Program-made: the position numbers and the translations under genes
Shown here: one piece after another, positions 40,920 through 51,405 of the stretch
How the letters are laid out: every line of letters starts with the position of its first letter
Position numbering within the stretch: the stretch's first letter is position 1
The notes under the pieces: generated by a model
Told to the model about the DNA's origin: nothing
The model's input: only the letters and a program-made list of their open reading frames with translations
Database searches by the model: none
NCBI RefSeq assembly: GCF_019823105.1
Contig: NZ_CP081958.1
Span: 2,604,001-2,668,000 of the forward strand
Direction of reading: 5' to 3'
From: Halobaculum magnesiiphilum
GTDB taxonomy: Archaea; Halobacteriota; Halobacteria; Halobacteriales; Haloferacaceae
DNA length: 64,000 nucleotides

Positions 40920-41119
40920 CTCGGACGCGTCGCGGTCGGAGCGGTCGTTCTCACCGCGTTCACCGTTCTCATCCTCGCGAGCGACGGCGCCGTCGTCCGC
41001 GACGGCCGGTTTTCCCGTCGACAAACGACAACCCGAATCCGAGTGAAAACGCCGTGCTTCGGCGGCGAAAACGCGAAACTCCGGCAGGTCTTTGGCCCGC
41101 GGGCGAGCATCCACACCAC

Positions 41120-42286
41120 ATGACAGGAGTACGAGTCGCGGGGGTCGGGCTGACGCCGTTCGGCGAGCACGCCGGGCGGACGGGCCGGGACCTGTTCGCG
41201 GAGGCGGCGCTCGCGGCGCTCGACGACGCCGGCGTCGCCGGCGACGACGTGGAGCACCTCAACTACGGCAACTTCATGGGCGCGCTCGCCGAGCGCCAGG
41301 GCCACCAGGCGCCGCTGATGGCCGAGGCCGCGGGGCTGCGCTGTGCGGGCACCCGGTACGAGGAGGCGTGCGCCTCCGCCGGCGTCGCCGTCCGCGAGGC
41401 GGTCCGCGCGGTCCGCTCGGGCGAGAACGACGTGATGCTCGCCGGCGGGATGGAGCGCATGACGAACCTCTCGACGGCGGAGGTGACCGAATCCCTGGCG
41501 GTCGCCGCCGACGAGCTGTTCGAGGTGCGCGCGGGCGTCACCTTCCCCGGCGCGTACGCGCTGATGGCGCGCGCCTACTTCGACGAGTACGGCGGCGGCC
41601 GCGAGGACCTCGCGCACGTGGCCGCGAAGAACCACGCCAACGCCGTGAACAACGAGTACGCGCAGTACCAGCGGGAGATCACCGTCGAGCAGGCGCTCGA
41701 CTCGCCGGCGGTCGCCTCCCCGCTGCACCTGTTCGACGCCTGCCCGATCACCGACGGCGCGAGCGCGCTCGTGCTCGTCTCCGAGGAGTACGCCGAGGAA
41801 CACGATCTGGACGCGCCGGTCGCGATCACCGGGACGGGACAGGGCGGCGACCGCGCCGCGCTCCAGGACCGCACCGACATGGCCCGGACGCCCGCCGCCG
41901 CCGACGCGGCCGCCGAGGCGTACGGCGACGCCGGTGTCGCCAGCGACGAGGTGGACGTGGCGGAGGTCCACGACTGCTTCACCATCGCGGAGGTGATGGC
42001 GCTTGAGGCGCTGGACTTCTTCGACCCCGGCGAGGGGATCGGCGCCGCGCGCCGCGGCGACACCACCCGCGACGGCGACCTCCCGGTGAACCTCTCGGGC
42101 GGGCTGAAGGCGAAGGGCCACCCGGTCGGCGCCACCGGCGGCTCGCAGATCGCCGAGATGACCCGCATCCTGCGCGGCGACCATCCCAACAGCGACGCCG
42201 TGCCCGACGCGACCGTCGGACTGACTCATAACGCCGGCGGGACGGTCGCCAGCGCCGTCGTCCACGTGCTGGAGGTGGCAGAATGA
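41120..42286 (+). CDS. Thiolase-domain protein (acetoacetyl-CoA thiolase type)
   Basis: Thiolase-fold enzyme of 388 residues. The nucleophilic cysteine lies in EEACASAGVAV, the second active-site segment is EVHDCFTIAEV, and GGLKAKGHPVGATG provides the catalytic His. It is coupled by ATGA overlap to a DUF35 zinc-ribbon/OB protein. In archaea such pairs shuttle acetyl or acyl-CoA, in the known case channelling acetoacetyl-CoA to HMG-CoA synthase. HMG-CoA synthase is not adjacent here, so a role in acyl-CoA breakdown with the 43-51 kb genes is also possible. ATG 41120. Confidence 0.88.
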   Translation: MTGVRVAGVGLTPFGEHAGRTGRDLFAEAALAALDDAGVAGDDVEHLNYGNFMGALAERQGHQAPLMAEAAGLRCAGTRYEEACASAGVAVREAVRAVRSGENDVMLAGGMERMTNLSTAEVTESLAVAADELFEVRAGVTFPGAYALMARAYFDEYGGGREDLAHVAAKNHANAVNNEYAQYQREITVEQALDSPAVASPLHLFDACPITDGASALVLVSEEYAEEHDLDAPVAITGTGQGGDRAALQDRTDMARTPAAADAAAEAYGDAGVASDEVDVAEVHDCFTIAEVMALEALDFFDPGEGIGAARRGDTTRDGDLPVNLSGGLKAKGHPVGATGGSQIAEMTRILRGDHPNSDAVPDATVGLTHNAGGTVASAVVHVLEVAE

Positions 42287-42678
42287 GCGACCCGGATCCG
42301 GACGCGCCCGCCGACACGGGCTACGACGAGTGGGCCGACGCGCTCGCCGAGGGCGGTTACTACATCGAGTGTGCGAACGGGCACGGGAACCTCCCGCCGC
42401 GGCGCGTGTGCCCCGACTGCGGGAGCACCGACCTCTCCGAGGAGCCGCTGCCCGACGTCGGCGCGGTCGCGACGTTCTCGGAGGTCCACGTCGCGCCCTC
42501 CGGCTTCGGCGAGGAGCCGCCGTACGTCACCGCTGTCGTCGATTTCGGCCCCGTCCGCGTCACGGGGATCGTCCGGGAGCTGTCGGCCGACGAGATCGAG
42601 ATCGGGACCGCCGTGCGGCCGGACGTGGAGCACAACGACGCGACGGACAAGCGCCTGGTCGTGTTCCGGCCGGCGTAA
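42283..42678 (+). CDS. DUF35 zinc-ribbon/OB-fold partner of thiolase
   Basis: A 131-residue protein with an N-terminal helix (YDEWADALAEGGYYIECANG), a rubredoxin-like zinc ribbon (a lone Cys in IECANG then VCPDCG) and a C-terminal OB fold (ATFSEVHVAPSGFGE onward). In archaeal thiolase-DUF35 complexes the OB domain holds the pantetheine of CoA. Its ATG overlaps the thiolase stop, so the two are surely co-translated. One of the four usual ribbon cysteines is not obvious. Confidence 0.88.
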   Translation: MSDPDPDAPADTGYDEWADALAEGGYYIECANGHGNLPPRRVCPDCGSTDLSEEPLPDVGAVATFSEVHVAPSGFGEEPPYVTAVVDFGPVRVTGIVRELSADEIEIGTAVRPDVEHNDATDKRLVVFRPA

Positions 42679-44927: not shown

Positions 44928-45998
44928 TTACAACGGCTCCTCGCCGTCGACGATCCGGAGACACCGCTGTGCCAACGCCGGCACCCGCGTCTCCATCGTC
45001 GGGTACAGGGGGTCGTCGCTGTTGCCCTCCAGGTATCGCCGGTAGAACATCTCCCCGAGGGCGGCGAGCTTGTACACCGCGAGCGTCCGGTAGAAGCGGT
45101 CGTGCTCGTAGGCGATCCCGGTCGCGTCCTCGTAGCGCGTGACGAGGTCTCGGCGGCTCGGGTACCCCTCGCGCTCCATGACCGTCGAGGTGAGTTCCGG
45201 CGTCGCCGGCGCGGGGTCGCCGGGGTCGCGCCAGAAGGAGAGCATCCAGCCCAGGTCCGTGAGCGGGTCGCCAAGCGCCGACAGCTCCCAGTCGAGGACG
45301 GCGACCAGCTCCGGCGGCGTTCCGGGCGCGAACATGACGTTGTCCAGCTTGTAGTCGCCGTGGACGAGCGCGTGCTCGTGGTCGGCTGGGACGTTCGCCT
45401 TCAGCCACTCGGTGACCTCGGCGATCTCGGGCACCTCACGGTCGTCGGCGGTCACCTCGAAGGCCCACTGGAACTGCTTCGCCCAGCGATCCACCTGCCG
45501 CTCGGTGAAGCCCGCGGGGCGGCCGAACTCGCCGAGGCCGACCGCACCGGGGTCGACCGCGTGGATCGCCGCGAGGGCGTCGACCAGCTCCCCCCCGACG
45601 CGACGGCGGTGCTCGGGCGCGGCGAAGCGCTCGGGTTCGTCATCGCGGAGCACGTCGCCCGGAGTGCGCTCCATCACGTAGAAGTCCGAGCCGAGCACGT
45701 CGTGGTCGTCGCACCCGAGCACCGTCTCCGGAAGCGGGACGCCGGTGTCCTGGAGCGCGTCCATCACGCGGTACTCCCGGAGCACGTCGTGGGCGGTCTC
45801 GGCGGTCTCGCCCGGCGGCGGCCGGCGGATCACGAGTTCGCGGTCGCCGTGGGTGACGAACAGGGTCTCGTTGGAGTGGCCCTCCGGGTGGCGGCGCACG
45901 TCGAACTCGTCGGCCGGGTCCAACTCGGCCGCGAGGTACGAGCGGAGGCGCTCGGGGTCGACGAGGCGTCGGACGTACGCCTCGGAGTCGTCGGACAT
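44928..45998 (-). CDS. APH-type phosphotransferase, ACAD10/11 kinase-domain-like
   Basis: Aminoglycoside-phosphotransferase-fold kinase of 356 residues. Its features are VIRRPPPGE (N-lobe Lys replaced by RR context), a catalytic loop VHGDYKLDNVMF and the metal-binding LDWELSALGDPLTDLGW. This pattern is that of the kinase domain of ACAD10/ACAD11 and of bacterial LvaA, which phosphorylate the 4-hydroxyl of 4-hydroxyacyl-CoA, rather than antibiotic kinases. It is divergent, 156 bp apart, from an ACAD11-type dehydrogenase gene, which is the expected partner. Fold certain; substrate inferred. Confidence 0.85.
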   Translation of the reverse strand: MSDDSEAYVRRLVDPERLRSYLAAELDPADEFDVRRHPEGHSNETLFVTHGDRELVIRRPPPGETAETAHDVLREYRVMDALQDTGVPLPETVLGCDDHDVLGSDFYVMERTPGDVLRDDEPERFAAPEHRRRVGGELVDALAAIHAVDPGAVGLGEFGRPAGFTERQVDRWAKQFQWAFEVTADDREVPEIAEVTEWLKANVPADHEHALVHGDYKLDNVMFAPGTPPELVAVLDWELSALGDPLTDLGWMLSFWRDPGDPAPATPELTSTVMEREGYPSRRDLVTRYEDATGIAYEHDRFYRTLAVYKLAALGEMFYRRYLEGNSDDPLYPTMETRVPALAQRCLRIVDGEEPL

Positions 45999-46154
45999 GC
46001 GAGTCGGTTGCACACCGGCCACGAAAAACGCCGGGGGTCGCGAGCGCGCGGCCGTCGCCCCGCCCCGTCGGGCGGTTCGGGTTGACGGTTCGGGCGGGCG
46101 ATTCTGGCGGGCGTTCGGGGGTAGTGTTTTGCCTCGGCGGTCGGACCCCGTGGT

Positions 46155-47378
46155 ATGGAATACGACGACAGCGAGGCGGCGCGCGCGCTCGCCGAGCGAA
46201 CCCGGGAGTTCGTCGACGAGGAGGTCATCCCCGTGGAACGGGAGGTGCTCGGGGACGGCCCCGTGAGCGACGAGCGGCTCGCGGAGCTCCGCGAGGCGGC
46301 CCGCGAGTACGACGTGTTCTGCCCGCAGATAGACGAGGAGTTCGGCGGCATGGGGATGGCCTTCCGCGACGTGCTCCCGATGTTCGAGCAGGCTGGACGG
46401 TCGCTGTTGGGCGCTGCGGCCTGCCGCGTCGACGCCCCCGACGAGGGGAACATGCACACCCTGGAACTGCTGGGCACCGACGAGCAGCAGGAACGGTGGC
46501 TCCGCCCGCTCGTCGCCGGCGAGGTCTCCTCCGGGTTCTCGATGACCGAGCCGATGCAGGGCGGCGGGTCGGACCCGAAGATGATCCGGACGACGGCCGA
46601 GAAGGAGGACGACGAGTGGGTCATCGACGGCCACAAGTGGTGGACCACCGGCGGCACCGAGGCGGACGTGCTCATCGTGATGGCGCGCACCGACCCCGAC
46701 GCACACCCCTACGAGGGAACCTCGCTGTTTCTCGTCCCCGCGGACACGCCGGGCGTGAACGTCGTCCGCGACATCCCCCACGTCGGCGGCGGGGTGACCG
46801 GCGTCGGCCACGCGGAGATCGAGTACGACGGCGTCCGCGTCCCCGAGGAGAACCTCCTCGGGACCCTGAACGAGGGGTTCGCCCACGCACAGCAGCGTCT
46901 CGGCCCCGCCCGGCTCACGCACTGCATGCGATTCGCCGGGATGGCCGAGCGAGCGCTCGACGTGGCGAAGGCCTACACCAGCGAGCGCGAGGCCTTCGGC
47001 GGCCCGATCGCGGACAAGCAGGCCGTCCGCCACGACGTCGCCGACGCGGAGACGGAGCTGCACGCCGTGCGGACGATGGTGCGCGACGCCGCCGACCGGA
47101 TCGACCGCGGCGAGGAGGCGCGCGTGCAGGTCGCGATGAGCAAGACGTTCGCCGCCAACACGGTCCAGGACATCGTCGACACCGCGCTCCAGCTGTGCGG
47201 CGCCAACGGTATCGGAAAGGACCTCCCGATCGGGGACTTCTACGAGTCGGTCCGACAGTTCCGCATCATCGACGGCGCCGACGAGGTCCACCGGCGCGTC
47301 ATCGCCCGCGACGCCTTCTCGGACGTGGACGAGTCGGAGTTGGCGAACGCGACGCGCTACGGCGAACCGAACGGGTAG
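46155..47378 (+). CDS. Acyl-CoA dehydrogenase, ACAD10/11 type
   Basis: FAD flavoprotein of 407 residues. Family motifs are APDEGNMHTLELLG, SGFSMTEPMQGGGSDPKM, HKWWTTGG, RLGPARLTHCMR, LQLCGANGIGKDLPI and IDGADEVHRRV. The last carries DEVH, as in ACAD10/11, where ordinary dehydrogenases have YEGTxxIQ. The N-terminal kinase domain found in the eukaryotic fusions is absent but encoded by the divergent neighbour. Likely substrate: 4-phospho- or 4-hydroxyacyl-CoA, or a branched acyl-CoA. It begins a plus-strand cluster with a hydrolase and a second dehydrogenase. Confidence 0.9.
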   Translation: MEYDDSEAARALAERTREFVDEEVIPVEREVLGDGPVSDERLAELREAAREYDVFCPQIDEEFGGMGMAFRDVLPMFEQAGRSLLGAAACRVDAPDEGNMHTLELLGTDEQQERWLRPLVAGEVSSGFSMTEPMQGGGSDPKMIRTTAEKEDDEWVIDGHKWWTTGGTEADVLIVMARTDPDAHPYEGTSLFLVPADTPGVNVVRDIPHVGGGVTGVGHAEIEYDGVRVPEENLLGTLNEGFAHAQQRLGPARLTHCMRFAGMAERALDVAKAYTSEREAFGGPIADKQAVRHDVADAETELHAVRTMVRDAADRIDRGEEARVQVAMSKTFAANTVQDIVDTALQLCGANGIGKDLPIGDFYESVRQFRIIDGADEVHRRVIARDAFSDVDESELANATRYGEPNG

Positions 47379-47466
47379 GGATCCGGCGAAAAACCGCCCC
47401 CGACCGGAAGCCGCCGCGGCCGAACCGTCGCCCCGATTTTTGTCCCCCGCGGGCGACGGGGCTTCC

Positions 47467-48327
47467 ATGGTGACAGTCGACGCGGACCACGAGGCGTGGA
47501 CGGCCGCCCAGTCGGAGACGACGGCGGTCGTCGACGGCCGGGAGCTGGACGTGGCGTACTACGAGGCCGGCCGCGACAACGGCGGTCCGCCGGCGATCTT
47601 CCTCCACGGGATCCCGACGTGGTCGTTCCTGTGGCGGGGGATCGCCCCCGCGGTCGCCGAGGACAGACACGTGATCGCCCCCGACCTCGTCGGCTACGGC
47701 AACTCCCAGCGTACCGACGACTTCGACCGGTCGATCCGCGCGCAGACGGGCGTGCTCGCCGAACTGATCGCCGACGCGGGGTACGAAGAGGTCGACCTCG
47801 TCGCCCACGACATCGGCGGCGGGGTCGCGCTGCGGTTCGCCGCCGCCCGCCCACGACAGGTGCGGAAGCTGGTGCTGTCGAACGCCGCGTGCTTCGACTC
47901 GTGGCCGGTCGAGTACATCAACTCCCTCGGCGTGCCCGGCGTCGTCGAGGGCTGGGACGACGCGGAGTTCGAGGAGAACATGGAGTTCCTGTTCGCCGAG
48001 GGCGCCCACGGCGACGCCGACCCGTCGTTCGTCGCGGGGATGCGGGCGCCGTGGGCCCGCGAGGGCGGCCGGCCGGCGCTTGCGCGGGCGGCGGTCGCGA
48101 CGAACACCAACCACACGACCTGCATCAACTACGGGGCGATCACCGCCGAGACGCTGTGTCTGTGGGGCGCCGACGACGTGCTCCAGCCGATCGACAACGC
48201 AGAGCGCCTCGCCGACGCCGTCGCCGGCGACGCCGAGGTCGTCGGTCTCGACGACGCCTACCACTGGGTCACTCACGACCGCACCGAGGCGTACCGCGAG
48301 CGGGTGCGGACGTTCCTCGCGGACTGA
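47467..48327 (+). CDS. Alpha/beta-hydrolase with Asp nucleophile (haloalkane dehalogenase/epoxide hydrolase-like)
   Basis: A 286-residue hydrolase. LHGIPTWSFLWRGIAP is the HGxPTxSxLWR oxyanion signature of haloalkane dehalogenases. The nucleophile elbow VAHDIGGGVAL puts Asp115 where Ser is usual, and His266 in YHWVTHD is the base. The Trp that normally follows the nucleophile and binds halide (HDWGG) is Ile here, so true dehalogenase activity is doubtful. Epoxide or other covalent-ester chemistry is more likely. It sits between two acyl-CoA dehydrogenase genes. ATG 47467. Confidence 0.82.
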   Translation: MVTVDADHEAWTAAQSETTAVVDGRELDVAYYEAGRDNGGPPAIFLHGIPTWSFLWRGIAPAVAEDRHVIAPDLVGYGNSQRTDDFDRSIRAQTGVLAELIADAGYEEVDLVAHDIGGGVALRFAAARPRQVRKLVLSNAACFDSWPVEYINSLGVPGVVEGWDDAEFEENMEFLFAEGAHGDADPSFVAGMRAPWAREGGRPALARAAVATNTNHTTCINYGAITAETLCLWGADDVLQPIDNAERLADAVAGDAEVVGLDDAYHWVTHDRTEAYRERVRTFLAD

Positions 48328-48404: not shown

Positions 48405-49553
48405 ATGTCGTTCCAGCTTTCGAGCGAACAGGAGGCGATCCGCGACGTGGTCCGGGAATTCGGGGAAAACGAGATCCGACCCGTCGCGCGCGAACACGAC
48501 GAGTCGCGCGAGTACCCGCACGACCTCGTCGAGCAGGCCGCACAGTACGACCTGGTGGCGCCGACGATCCCCGAGGAGTACGGCGGCGCCGGGATGGATC
48601 TCCTGACCTCGGCGGTCGTTACCGAGGAGCTGTGGCGCGCGGACCCCGGGATCGGCTCGGCCATCGGCTCGCGCGGCTTCGGCACGACGATGATCCGGGA
48701 GTTCGGCGACGAGTGGATGAAAGAAGAGTGGCTCCCGAAGGTCGCTGCCGGCGACGCGGCCACCTGCTCGTGCATCTCCGAGCCCGCGCACGGCTCCGAC
48801 GTGGCGGGTATCGAGACCCGCGCGGAACTCGACGAGGAGGCCGGCGAGTGGGTGCTCGACGGCGACAAGATGTGGATCACGAACGGGACGATCGCCGACG
48901 TGGCGGTCGTGATGGCGAAGACCTCGCCCGGCGAGCGCCACCGGGGCATCACCGCGTTCCTCGTCGAGGCCGACCGCGACGGCTTCGAGCCGACGAAGAT
49001 CGACAACAAGCTCGGTATCCGCGCCTCCGACCTCGCGGAGATCCGTCTCGACGACGTGCGCGTCCCCGAGGACAACGTGATCGGCGCGGTCGACCAGGGC
49101 TTCTACCAGCTGATGGCGTTCTTCGCCGGCGGGCGCACCTCCGTGGCCGCGCAGGCCGTCGGCGCCGCCCAGGGCGCGCTCGACGCCGCCGTCGAATACG
49201 CCGGCGAGCGCGAGCAGGGCGGCAAGACGATCCAGGAGTACCAGGCGATCTCCCACAAGCTCGCCGAGATGGCTACCGACGTGGAGGCGGCGCGGTCGCT
49301 GACGTACCGCGCGGCGTCGGTCGTCGACGCGGACGGCAACGACCAGCTGGCCGCGAAGTTCGCGTCGATGGCGAAGCTGTTCGCCTCCGAGCGCGCCGTC
49401 GAGGTCGCCGACGAGGGGATCCAGGTCCACGGCGGCGCCGGCTTCGTCACGGACCACCCCGCCGAGCGCTTCTACCGCGACGCACGGATCACGAAGATCT
49501 ACGAGGGGACCTCCGAGATCCAGAAGAACATCATCTCGGATCAGCTGCTGTGA
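48405..49553 (+). CDS. Acyl-CoA dehydrogenase (medium/short-chain type)
   Basis: Typical 382-residue FAD dehydrogenase introducing the 2,3-double bond of acyl-CoAs. Features: IPEEYGGAGMDLLTS, SCISEPAHGSDVAG, DKMWITNGTIADV (flavin and substrate contacts), AVDQGFYQLMAFFAGGR, and the catalytic glutamate in ITKIYEGTSEIQKNII. It differs from the dehydrogenase at 46155 in carrying the normal C-terminal catalytic motif. Electrons should go to an ETF, not encoded here. Chain-length preference is not readable. Confidence 0.93.
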   Translation: MSFQLSSEQEAIRDVVREFGENEIRPVAREHDESREYPHDLVEQAAQYDLVAPTIPEEYGGAGMDLLTSAVVTEELWRADPGIGSAIGSRGFGTTMIREFGDEWMKEEWLPKVAAGDAATCSCISEPAHGSDVAGIETRAELDEEAGEWVLDGDKMWITNGTIADVAVVMAKTSPGERHRGITAFLVEADRDGFEPTKIDNKLGIRASDLAEIRLDDVRVPEDNVIGAVDQGFYQLMAFFAGGRTSVAAQAVGAAQGALDAAVEYAGEREQGGKTIQEYQAISHKLAEMATDVEAARSLTYRAASVVDADGNDQLAAKFASMAKLFASERAVEVADEGIQVHGGAGFVTDHPAERFYRDARITKIYEGTSEIQKNIISDQLL

Positions 49554-49707: not shown

Positions 49708-50244
49708 ATGAGCGACGACGCCGGCGACCACCCCGGCGGCGACGCCCCGGACTGGGACTTCTCCGAGCGCGACGTGGCGATCCTCGAGGAGGTCGCCGAC
49801 AACCCGGGCATCTCCTCGCGGGAGCTGTCGCGGGTGCTGGAGGCCGATTACGGCATCGAGGTCTCGCACGTCACCGTCAGCGAGACGCTCCGGAAGATGC
49901 GCGAGCGGGGCGTGTTCCGCGACGCCATCGTCCCGAACGAGGACTACTACGCCTTCGGCCTGTTCGAGTTCAAGTTCGACCCCTCCAACTTCGCGGAGGA
50001 GTGGCGCGCGGCGATGGAGTACATCCGCGACGATCCTCACACGCTGCTGTACTTCCTCTCTGACGGCGAGTACCAGTGGAAGTCGGTGATGATGTTCCCC
50101 ACCCGGGAGGCCCAGTCGAAGTGGATCCACGAGTTCTACAAGGAACACGGCGCGGTCGTCTCGAACCTCCGGAACCACGTCGTCCACAACGTCCTCAAGT
50201 TCCGCACCGACCCGGAGATCTTCCGGACCTTACGCGAGGAGTAG
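49708..50244 (+). CDS. Winged-helix transcriptional regulator
   Basis: A 178-residue regulator. The N-terminal winged helix (about 18-75) reads FSERDVAILEEVADNPGISS, RELSRVLEADY, then VSHVTVSETLRKMRERGVF as recognition helix and wing. The C-terminal ~95 residues (FGLFEFKFDPSNFAEEW, HTLLYFLSDGEYQWKS) form an alpha/beta ligand-sensing domain seen in haloarchaeal Lrp-like proteins. Position between the acyl-CoA dehydrogenase and the dehydrogenase/reductase suggests it controls this cluster, perhaps through the palindrome at 50331-50345. Confidence 0.85.
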   Translation: MSDDAGDHPGGDAPDWDFSERDVAILEEVADNPGISSRELSRVLEADYGIEVSHVTVSETLRKMRERGVFRDAIVPNEDYYAFGLFEFKFDPSNFAEEWRAAMEYIRDDPHTLLYFLSDGEYQWKSVMMFPTREAQSKWIHEFYKEHGAVVSNLRNHVVHNVLKFRTDPEIFRTLREE

Positions 50245-50401: not shown

Positions 50402-50542
50402 ATGACACGACACACTGACCCACACGACGCGGAATCGCATCACATGGACACACACGACACGGATCCCCACGGAAATCCCCGCCCTCCCGCCCGCACCCGT
50501 GCGACGACCCCGACGCCCTCGTCCGGCGGGTGGTCGGCGTGA
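50402..50542 (+). CDS. Possible 46-residue His/Asp-rich small protein
   Basis: Open frame of 46 codons starting ATG at 50402 (MTRHTDPHDAESHHMDTHDT), with eight His among the first 23 residues and a Pro/Arg/Thr-rich tail. Its TGA overlaps the SDR start codon (GTGA at 50539-50542), an arrangement common for coupled genes. His clusters could bind metal. No family is recognised, and GC-rich DNA gives such frames by chance, so it is only a candidate. Confidence 0.3.
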   Translation: MTRHTDPHDAESHHMDTHDTDPHGNPRPPARTRATTPTPSSGGWSA

Positions 50543-51405
50543 GCGACCCCGGCGACGACGCCGCCCGCCGGATCGCCGACCGCTTCTCGCTTTCGGGCGA
50601 GGTGGCGGTGGTCACCGGCGCCTCCAGCGGGATCGGCCGCGCGATCGCCGAGGAGTTCGCCGCCGACGGCGCCGACGTGGTCGTCTGCTCGCGCGAGCAG
50701 GGGAACGTCGACCCCGTCGCCGAGGCGATCAACGAGGCCGCGGAGGCCGACGCCGACACGGACGGCGATGCCGAGGGTGACGACGAGCCGGGTGCGGACC
50801 CCGCTCACGGTCGCTGTCTCGCCGTCGAGTGCGACGTGACCGACCGCGACGCCGTCGACGCGCTCGTCGAGGCGACCGTCGAGGAGTTCGGCGGGCTCGA
50901 CGTGCTCGTGAACAACGCGGGCGCGTCGTTCATGGCGGCCTTCGAGGACATCTCCGCGAACGGGTGGGAGACCATCGTCGACATCAACCTCCACGGCACG
51001 TTCCACTGCACGCAGGCCGCCGGCGACCATCTCGCCGACGGCGGCGGCACGGTGGTCAACCTCGCGAGCGTCGCGGGCCGACGTGCCGCTCAGTACATGA
51101 GCCACTACGGCGCGGCGAAGGCGGGCGTGATCAACCTCACCGAGACGCTCGCGCTGGAGTGGGCCGGCCGGGACGTGCGCGTCAACTGCATCGCTCCCGG
51201 GTTCGTGGCGACGCCGGGCGTCGAACAACAGATGGGCGTCTCCGCCGACGAGGTCGACCGCGGCGACGTGGACCGCCGGATCGGTACGAGCGAGGAGATC
51301 GCCGACATCGCCCGCTTCCTCGCGAGCGACGCCGCCAGCTACATGACCGGCGAGACGGTGGCGGCCCAGGGCGTCCCGCAGGGCGAGGAGCTCCCGCAGC
51401 AGTAG
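50539..51405 (+). CDS. Short-chain dehydrogenase/reductase
   Basis: Classical SDR of 288 residues using NAD(P). TGASSGIG (cofactor), NNAG, the catalytic Ser in LASVAG and the YxxxK in YGAAKAG are all intact. An acidic insert of about 30 residues (near 70-100, Asp/Glu/Ala-rich) is unusual. GTG 50539 is preferred to GTG 50530. In context it may oxidise a hydroxyacyl-CoA, as the SDR of lva-type pathways or 3-hydroxyacyl-CoA dehydrogenases do. The frame continues after its TAG into a VOC-family remnant. Confidence 0.9.
   Translation: MSDPGDDAARRIADRFSLSGEVAVVTGASSGIGRAIAEEFAADGADVVVCSREQGNVDPVAEAINEAAEADADTDGDAEGDDEPGADPAHGRCLAVECDVTDRDAVDALVEATVEEFGGLDVLVNNAGASFMAAFEDISANGWETIVDINLHGTFHCTQAAGDHLADGGGTVVNLASVAGRRAAQYMSHYGAAKAGVINLTETLALEWAGRDVRVNCIAPGFVATPGVEQQMGVSADEVDRGDVDRRIGTSEEIADIARFLASDAASYMTGETVAAQGVPQGEELPQQ

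Follow-up and report, generated by a model that had tools for sequence, protein, structure and literature searches.

A route for 4-hydroxyacids that runs through phosphorylation and phosphate elimination has recently been found in bacteria and mammals. In mouse ACAD11 the 4-phosphate is bound by R626, H634 and R637 and the base is D753; disruption of the R626/H634/R637/D753 region ablated activity, and H597 was partly important (PMC12440821). The conserved proline motif of human ACAD11 (P463) is said to widen the active-site cavity, and in ACAD10 a HAD domain that retains the first Asp alone restrains the kinase (PMC11342911). In the bacterial lva operon (LvaA, LvaB, LvaC, LvaD, LvaE) the kinase and the acyl-CoA dehydrogenase (ACAD) are encoded by separate genes. 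Here we examined a divergent gene pair of the haloarchaeon Halobaculum magnesiiphilum, within a 64,000-nucleotide stretch of contig NZ_CP081958.1 (positions 2,604,001 to 2,668,000; hereafter the window), and our analysis points to a split ACAD10/11-type module that probably feeds 4-hydroxyacids into beta-oxidation.

The first gene encodes an APH-fold kinase of the ACAD11 type (P0001, 356 amino acids; 44928-45998, minus strand), a proposed 4-hydroxyacyl-CoA kinase recognised by its Pfam APH match, motifs and AlphaFold2 (AF2) model. The second encodes an ACAD of the ACAD10/11-LvaC type (P0002, 407 amino acids; 46155-47378, plus strand), whose clade and diagnostic residues suggest a phosphate-eliminating enzyme. 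The divergent arrangement given in a preliminary description of this DNA was confirmed: the two are separate genes on opposite strands, not one polypeptide, and the 156-bp gap between them (45999-46154, assigned to no strand) presumably contains both promoters. This divergent layout is found in most linked pairs across the class, and the closest named genomes are those of Halobaculum species, with ACAD identities of 93-95%. No NCBIfam model scored above its cut-off for either protein. An 846-codon open frame on the minus strand (window 44928-47468) covers the kinase and the antisense of the entire ACAD gene; this looks like a high-GC effect, because homologues begin near 45998.

When P0002 was analysed, all three acyl-CoA dehydrogenase domains were matched by Pfam. 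It carries APDEGNM (P95), RLGPARLTHCMR (R248-R259) and IIDGADEVH (D373), the latter replacing YEGTxxIQ, as the preliminary description had read, and these motifs were near-invariant in 32 aligned ACADs. We found that R248, H256 and R259, which lie on one helix, together with D373 and H219, correspond to R626, H634, R637, D753 and H597 of mouse ACAD11. All five, and P95, were invariant in the alignment, which extended down to 34% identity, and the catalytic-base position is occupied by Asp, not Glu. A maximum-likelihood tree placed P0002, its haloarchaeal orthologues, LvaC (taken from the annotated lva operon of P. aeruginosa plasmid p12939-PER), ACAD11, the protein of structure 4hr3 and bacterial ACADs with a phosphotransferase gene nearby in one clade with 100/100 support, while ordinary ACADs and the second ACAD of the window (48405-49553) fell outside it. 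Identities of P0002 were 44% to a Thermus ACAD, 39% to LvaC, 35% to ACAD11 and 27% to SCAD. The AF2 model (pLDDT 90.5) best matched 4hr3 in the PDB (Z 45.5, root-mean-square deviation (rmsd) 3.0, 387 residues aligned), and human ACAD11 structures also matched well (2wbi, Z 44.3, rmsd 3.8, 382 aligned; 8v3u, Z 42.9, rmsd 3.6, 383 aligned). The earlier suggestion of a split ACAD10/11-type module is supported by the clade and by residues that published mutagenesis ties to 4-phosphoacyl-CoA. We also observed another type of ACAD, with about 60% identity and the motifs APQEGNM and RLGGGRLTHCMR, on a plasmid of Natronorubrum bangense (L075:8001-9251), near thiolase and MaoC genes and without a kinase; further genomes of the N. 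bangense family group have similar second copies (about 61% identity).

The kinase gave a Pfam APH score of 177 bits and is the single strong APH protein of the H. magnesiiphilum genome. The VHGDYKLDN and DWE motifs given in the preliminary description are present in it, along with an RQV segment. In 24 aligned kinases reaching down to 37% identity, the catalytic D215 and N220 (HGDxxxxN) and the metal-site D236 (DWE) were invariant, and R167 of the RQV segment, the equivalent of the CoA-contacting R176, was nearly so; LvaA lacks this Arg. Since the motifs of both proteins are invariant or nearly so in the aligned ACADs and kinases, they are not chance occurrences. P0001 was 35% identical to 9o56, 34% to the ACAD11 kinase and 33% to 3dxp. 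Its AF2 model (pLDDT 90.6) lay nearest to 3dxp (Z 30.5, rmsd 3.8, 320 aligned), with choline kinases far behind at 22.6. In the tree it grouped with ACAD11-type kinases, close to the ACAD11 kinase, 3dxp and actinobacterial kinases, and not with unrelated APH enzymes; an approximately unbiased test did not separate the possible branching orders of the subgroups (p 0.15). A distant paralogue of the kinase (40% identity) was seen on a plasmid of Halorussus vallis (L074:4068-7074), beside a 595-amino-acid acyl-CoA dehydrogenase-family protein and glycoside hydrolases. No viral carrier of the kinase was found in one scan.

The preliminary description had likened the pair to LvaA and LvaC. The likeness held for LvaC, which shares the clade and the diagnostic residues, but the expected kinship of P0001 with LvaA was rejected: the two are 23% identical, and a branch of its own, with 100/100 support, unites LvaA with the kinases of Azospirillum and Thermus, whose operons also hold DUF6285, the LvaB family. 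DUF6285 was found in none of 242 genomes of the class Halobacteria, the sample used throughout (presence and absence calls depend on thresholds), while two control genomes were positive in the same search. Because DUF6285 is absent from these genomes and the LvaA-type kinases that accompany it elsewhere branch apart, we class the haloarchaeal system, by sequence, as LvaB-free and of the ACAD11 type. It shares with mammalian ACAD11/ACAD10 the kinase subtype (RQV, HGDxKLDN), the R/H/R pocket, the Asp base, APDxGNM and independence of LvaB, but consists of two proteins from divergent genes, whereas in mammals kinase and ACAD are domains of a single fused protein. Compared with the lva operon, kinase and ACAD genes are likewise separate, and an SDR and a CoA ligase accompany the pair in several haloarchaea, whereas a co-directional operon and a PrpR-type regulator are missing. 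The ACADs of the Thermus and Azospirillum ACAD-phosphotransferase-DUF6285 operons are 40-44% identical to P0002, carry the same motifs and lie beside a phosphotransferase; unlike the haloarchaeal pair, these operons have an LvaA-type kinase, DUF6285 and a histidine phosphatase. The order LvaA-type kinase, DUF6285, histidine phosphatase was seen in Thermus thermophilus JL-18 (L067:8104-10074) and Azospirillum ramasamyi (L077:7140-9306). The phosphatase thus recurs beside LvaA-type kinases of unrelated lineages, where it might clear stray phospho-intermediates.

Co-occurrence of the pair, which the preliminary description had put forward as a check, was without exception. With cut-offs of E < 1e-80 for the best kinase hit and E <= 1e-90 for the ACAD, each orthologue was detected in 123 of the 242 genomes, and the two sets of 123 were identical (Fisher p 3e-72, a value that overstates independence because the genomes are related). 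All 12 genera that were mixed for presence of the pair were concordant for kinase and ACAD (12/12, sign test 0.0005). A further 15 genomes had distant kinase relatives only (E 1e-32 to 1e-53) without such an ACAD. The genes lay less than 5 kb apart in 72 genomes, with 61 of 75 such pairs divergent, and were not neighbours in 51; since those 51 genomes keep both genes apart, the coupling is not mere linkage. Outside Halobacteria but within the same phylum, no match to the ACAD was found at E 1e-70, and more distant members are still possible. What we establish here is that both proteins belong to these families, that the diagnostic residues are retained, and that every sampled genome with one gene of the pair also has the other.

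We propose the following sequence of reactions. A CoA ligase encoded elsewhere in the genome would activate a 4-hydroxy or 4-oxo acid, and an SDR would reduce any 4-oxoacyl-CoA. The kinase, judging by homology and its conserved catalytic residues, would phosphorylate the acyl-CoA on its 4-hydroxyl, with ATP as the donor. By analogy with ACAD11 biochemistry and from residue identity, D373 of the ACAD would then abstract the C2 proton while R248, H256 and R259 hold the 4-phosphate, and the enzyme with its bound FAD would eliminate phosphate to give a 2-enoyl-CoA with no net oxidation. The 2-enoyl-CoA would enter ordinary beta-oxidation. The substrate of ACAD10, 4-hydroxyhexanoate and not the 5- or 6-hydroxy acid (PMC11342911), counts in favour of this scheme.

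The same chemistry might instead serve internal lipid clearance, removing 4-hydroxyacids that arise within the cell, from peroxidation of lipids or hydrolysis of lactones for instance, rather than supporting growth on external acids. Mammalian ACAD10/11 do handle such lipids (PMC12440821, PMC11342911), but the pair is absent from half of the class and therefore not universally needed, and some plasmids carry it along with CoA ligases, as one would expect of an accessory trait in catabolism; we consider internal clearance unlikely. Because it shares its chemistry with the proposed 4-hydroxyacid module, our confidence in the one does not exclude the other. A different substrate is very unlikely: here the kinase would act on the hydroxyl of some other compound, such as an isoprenoid or a steroid-like alcohol, whether free or linked to CoA, and the phosphate would be removed by the ACAD or by a different lyase. 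Its model is the 25-hydroxysteroid kinase of Sterolibacterium, which has the same APH fold, is a close structural match to P0001 (9ft5, Z 27.6, rmsd 3.2, 320 aligned) and activates a tertiary alcohol for later phosphate elimination (PMC8449060). That kinase, however, takes a steroid substrate, is 29% identical to P0001 and lies outside its clade; its lyase is unknown, with no ACAD reported near the gene (PMC8449060), whereas P0001 strictly co-occurs with an ACAD bearing a 4-phosphate pocket. Ordinary dehydrogenation by a conventional FAD- and electron-transfer-flavoprotein-dependent ACAD, with a kinase of unrelated function, is likewise very unlikely: fold and domains resemble those of any ACAD and neither Pfam nor NCBIfam separates the types, but mammalian ACAD10/11 are inactive on plain acyl-CoAs (PMC12440821) and the ACAD and kinase co-occur perfectly even when unlinked.

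Several observations weigh against the 4-hydroxyacid module. Identity to the characterised proteins is only 34-39%. The best ordinary ACAD matched the P0002 model at Z 42.4, a narrow structural margin, and therefore the sequence features carry the ACAD argument. In the window no CoA ligase lies beside the pair; a 73% identical orthologue of the CoA ligase is encoded elsewhere in the genome. Finally, the levulinate phenotype described below comes from another genus and is a gene-phenotype association.

Haloferax mediterranei DSM 1411 has been reported to grow on levulinic acid in mineral medium, at 0.097 per hour at 0.6 g/L (PMC12455835). We found that its plasmid pHME132 carries, within about 11 kb, genes for an SDR, a HAD protein, the ACAD, the kinase, a 3-hydroxyacyl-CoA dehydrogenase/hydratase fusion, a regulator, a second ACAD and a CoA ligase. 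In the halophilic archaeon DL31, SDR, kinase, ACAD, CoA ligase and SDR genes follow one another consecutively. The growth of H. mediterranei and its pHME132 cluster are consistent with a levulinate route, and levulinate/4-hydroxyvalerate is one likely substrate, longer 4-hydroxyacids being equally possible. If true, the proposed module would explain levulinate use by this bioplastic producer.

A HAD protein (P0008) is a stronger partner of the pair elsewhere than the members proposed in the preliminary description. It was found in 85 genomes, all 85 of them pair-positive, and lay less than 5 kb from the kinase in 34 of the 37 genomes checked, often directly adjoining it. The protein was not found in the H. 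magnesiiphilum genome at E 1e-30. In 12 of 12 copies the first motif reads DxGGV, with the second Asp replaced by Gly; the H. mediterranei protein (L066:6912-7634) likewise has DxG for DxD. Unlike in ACAD10, the HAD is encoded by a separate gene. P0008 scored higher with TIGR02253 than with TIGR02247, the ACAD10-like HAD family, so it does not belong specifically to that family and its recruitment may be independent. By analogy with the HAD domain of ACAD10, we propose that P0008 may restrain the kinase or clear stray phospho-intermediates. It is possible, though on balance doubtful, that the archaeal route for 4-hydroxyacids, levulinate included, amounts to an ACAD10 split over three genes, one for the kinase, one for an ACAD that eliminates phosphate and one for a HAD protein that shares the degenerate first motif and has one of these two functions. 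With kinase, ACAD and HAD as separate genes, the effect of the HAD on the kinase, hard to address in fused ACAD10, is testable by single-gene deletions.

Since domain databases already describe an ACAD10/11-like kinase family, kinship with it is in itself no novelty. What does appear new, as read from sequence, is a strictly co-occurring archaeal pair, with an ACAD11-type rather than LvaA-type kinase, no LvaB and a dedicated HAD partner. In a literature search that left subscription journals mostly outside, no paper was found that connects haloarchaea with ACAD10/11 or with genes for levulinate catabolism, and archaea are unmentioned in both ACAD10/11 papers (PMC12440821, PMC11342911). If the proposal is true, the route known from bacteria and mammals would reach the Archaea, where its parts are encoded separately and are accessible to genetics. 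The 123 pair-bearing genomes gain a specific functional hypothesis for genes annotated only by superfamily.

Other genes of the window had been proposed as further members of the route, and 43 stretches around the pair were surveyed by tblastn with clean proteins. The SDR oxidoreductase (50530-51405, plus strand), which lies near the pair in many genera, is a probable pathway partner: orthologues of at least 65% identity occurred in about a third of the 43 neighbourhoods, and it was present in 112 of 123 pair-positive versus 24 of 119 pair-negative genomes. It could be a 4-oxoacyl-CoA reductase in the role of LvaD; its 35% identity to LvaD is a generic level for SDRs. The winged-helix regulator (49708-50244, plus strand) was also retained as a probable local regulator, being found in 12 of 43 neighbourhoods and in 102 of 123 pair-positive versus 26 of 119 pair-negative genomes. 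Membership of the second ACAD (48405-49553, plus strand), an ordinary enzyme with YEGTSEIQ, was weakly supported by orthologues in 7 of 43 neighbourhoods, and it may be a downstream beta-oxidation partner. The two alpha/beta hydrolases of the window were rejected as members, with retention mainly in Halobaculum and no enrichment with the pair; the one between the two ACADs (47467-48327, plus strand; Pfam Abhydrolase_1) is kept in Halobaculum and was found elsewhere in 3 of 43 neighbourhoods. Fusions of 3-hydroxyacyl-CoA dehydrogenase and enoyl-CoA hydratase, CoA ligases and the HAD protein were each found in about 10 of the 43 neighbourhoods, and a 48% identical relative of the fusion is encoded elsewhere in the H. 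magnesiiphilum genome. At window 41057-42678, a thiolase adjoins a ChsH2-type OB-fold/zinc-ribbon protein, and these two genes are kept at the same position in Halobaculum.
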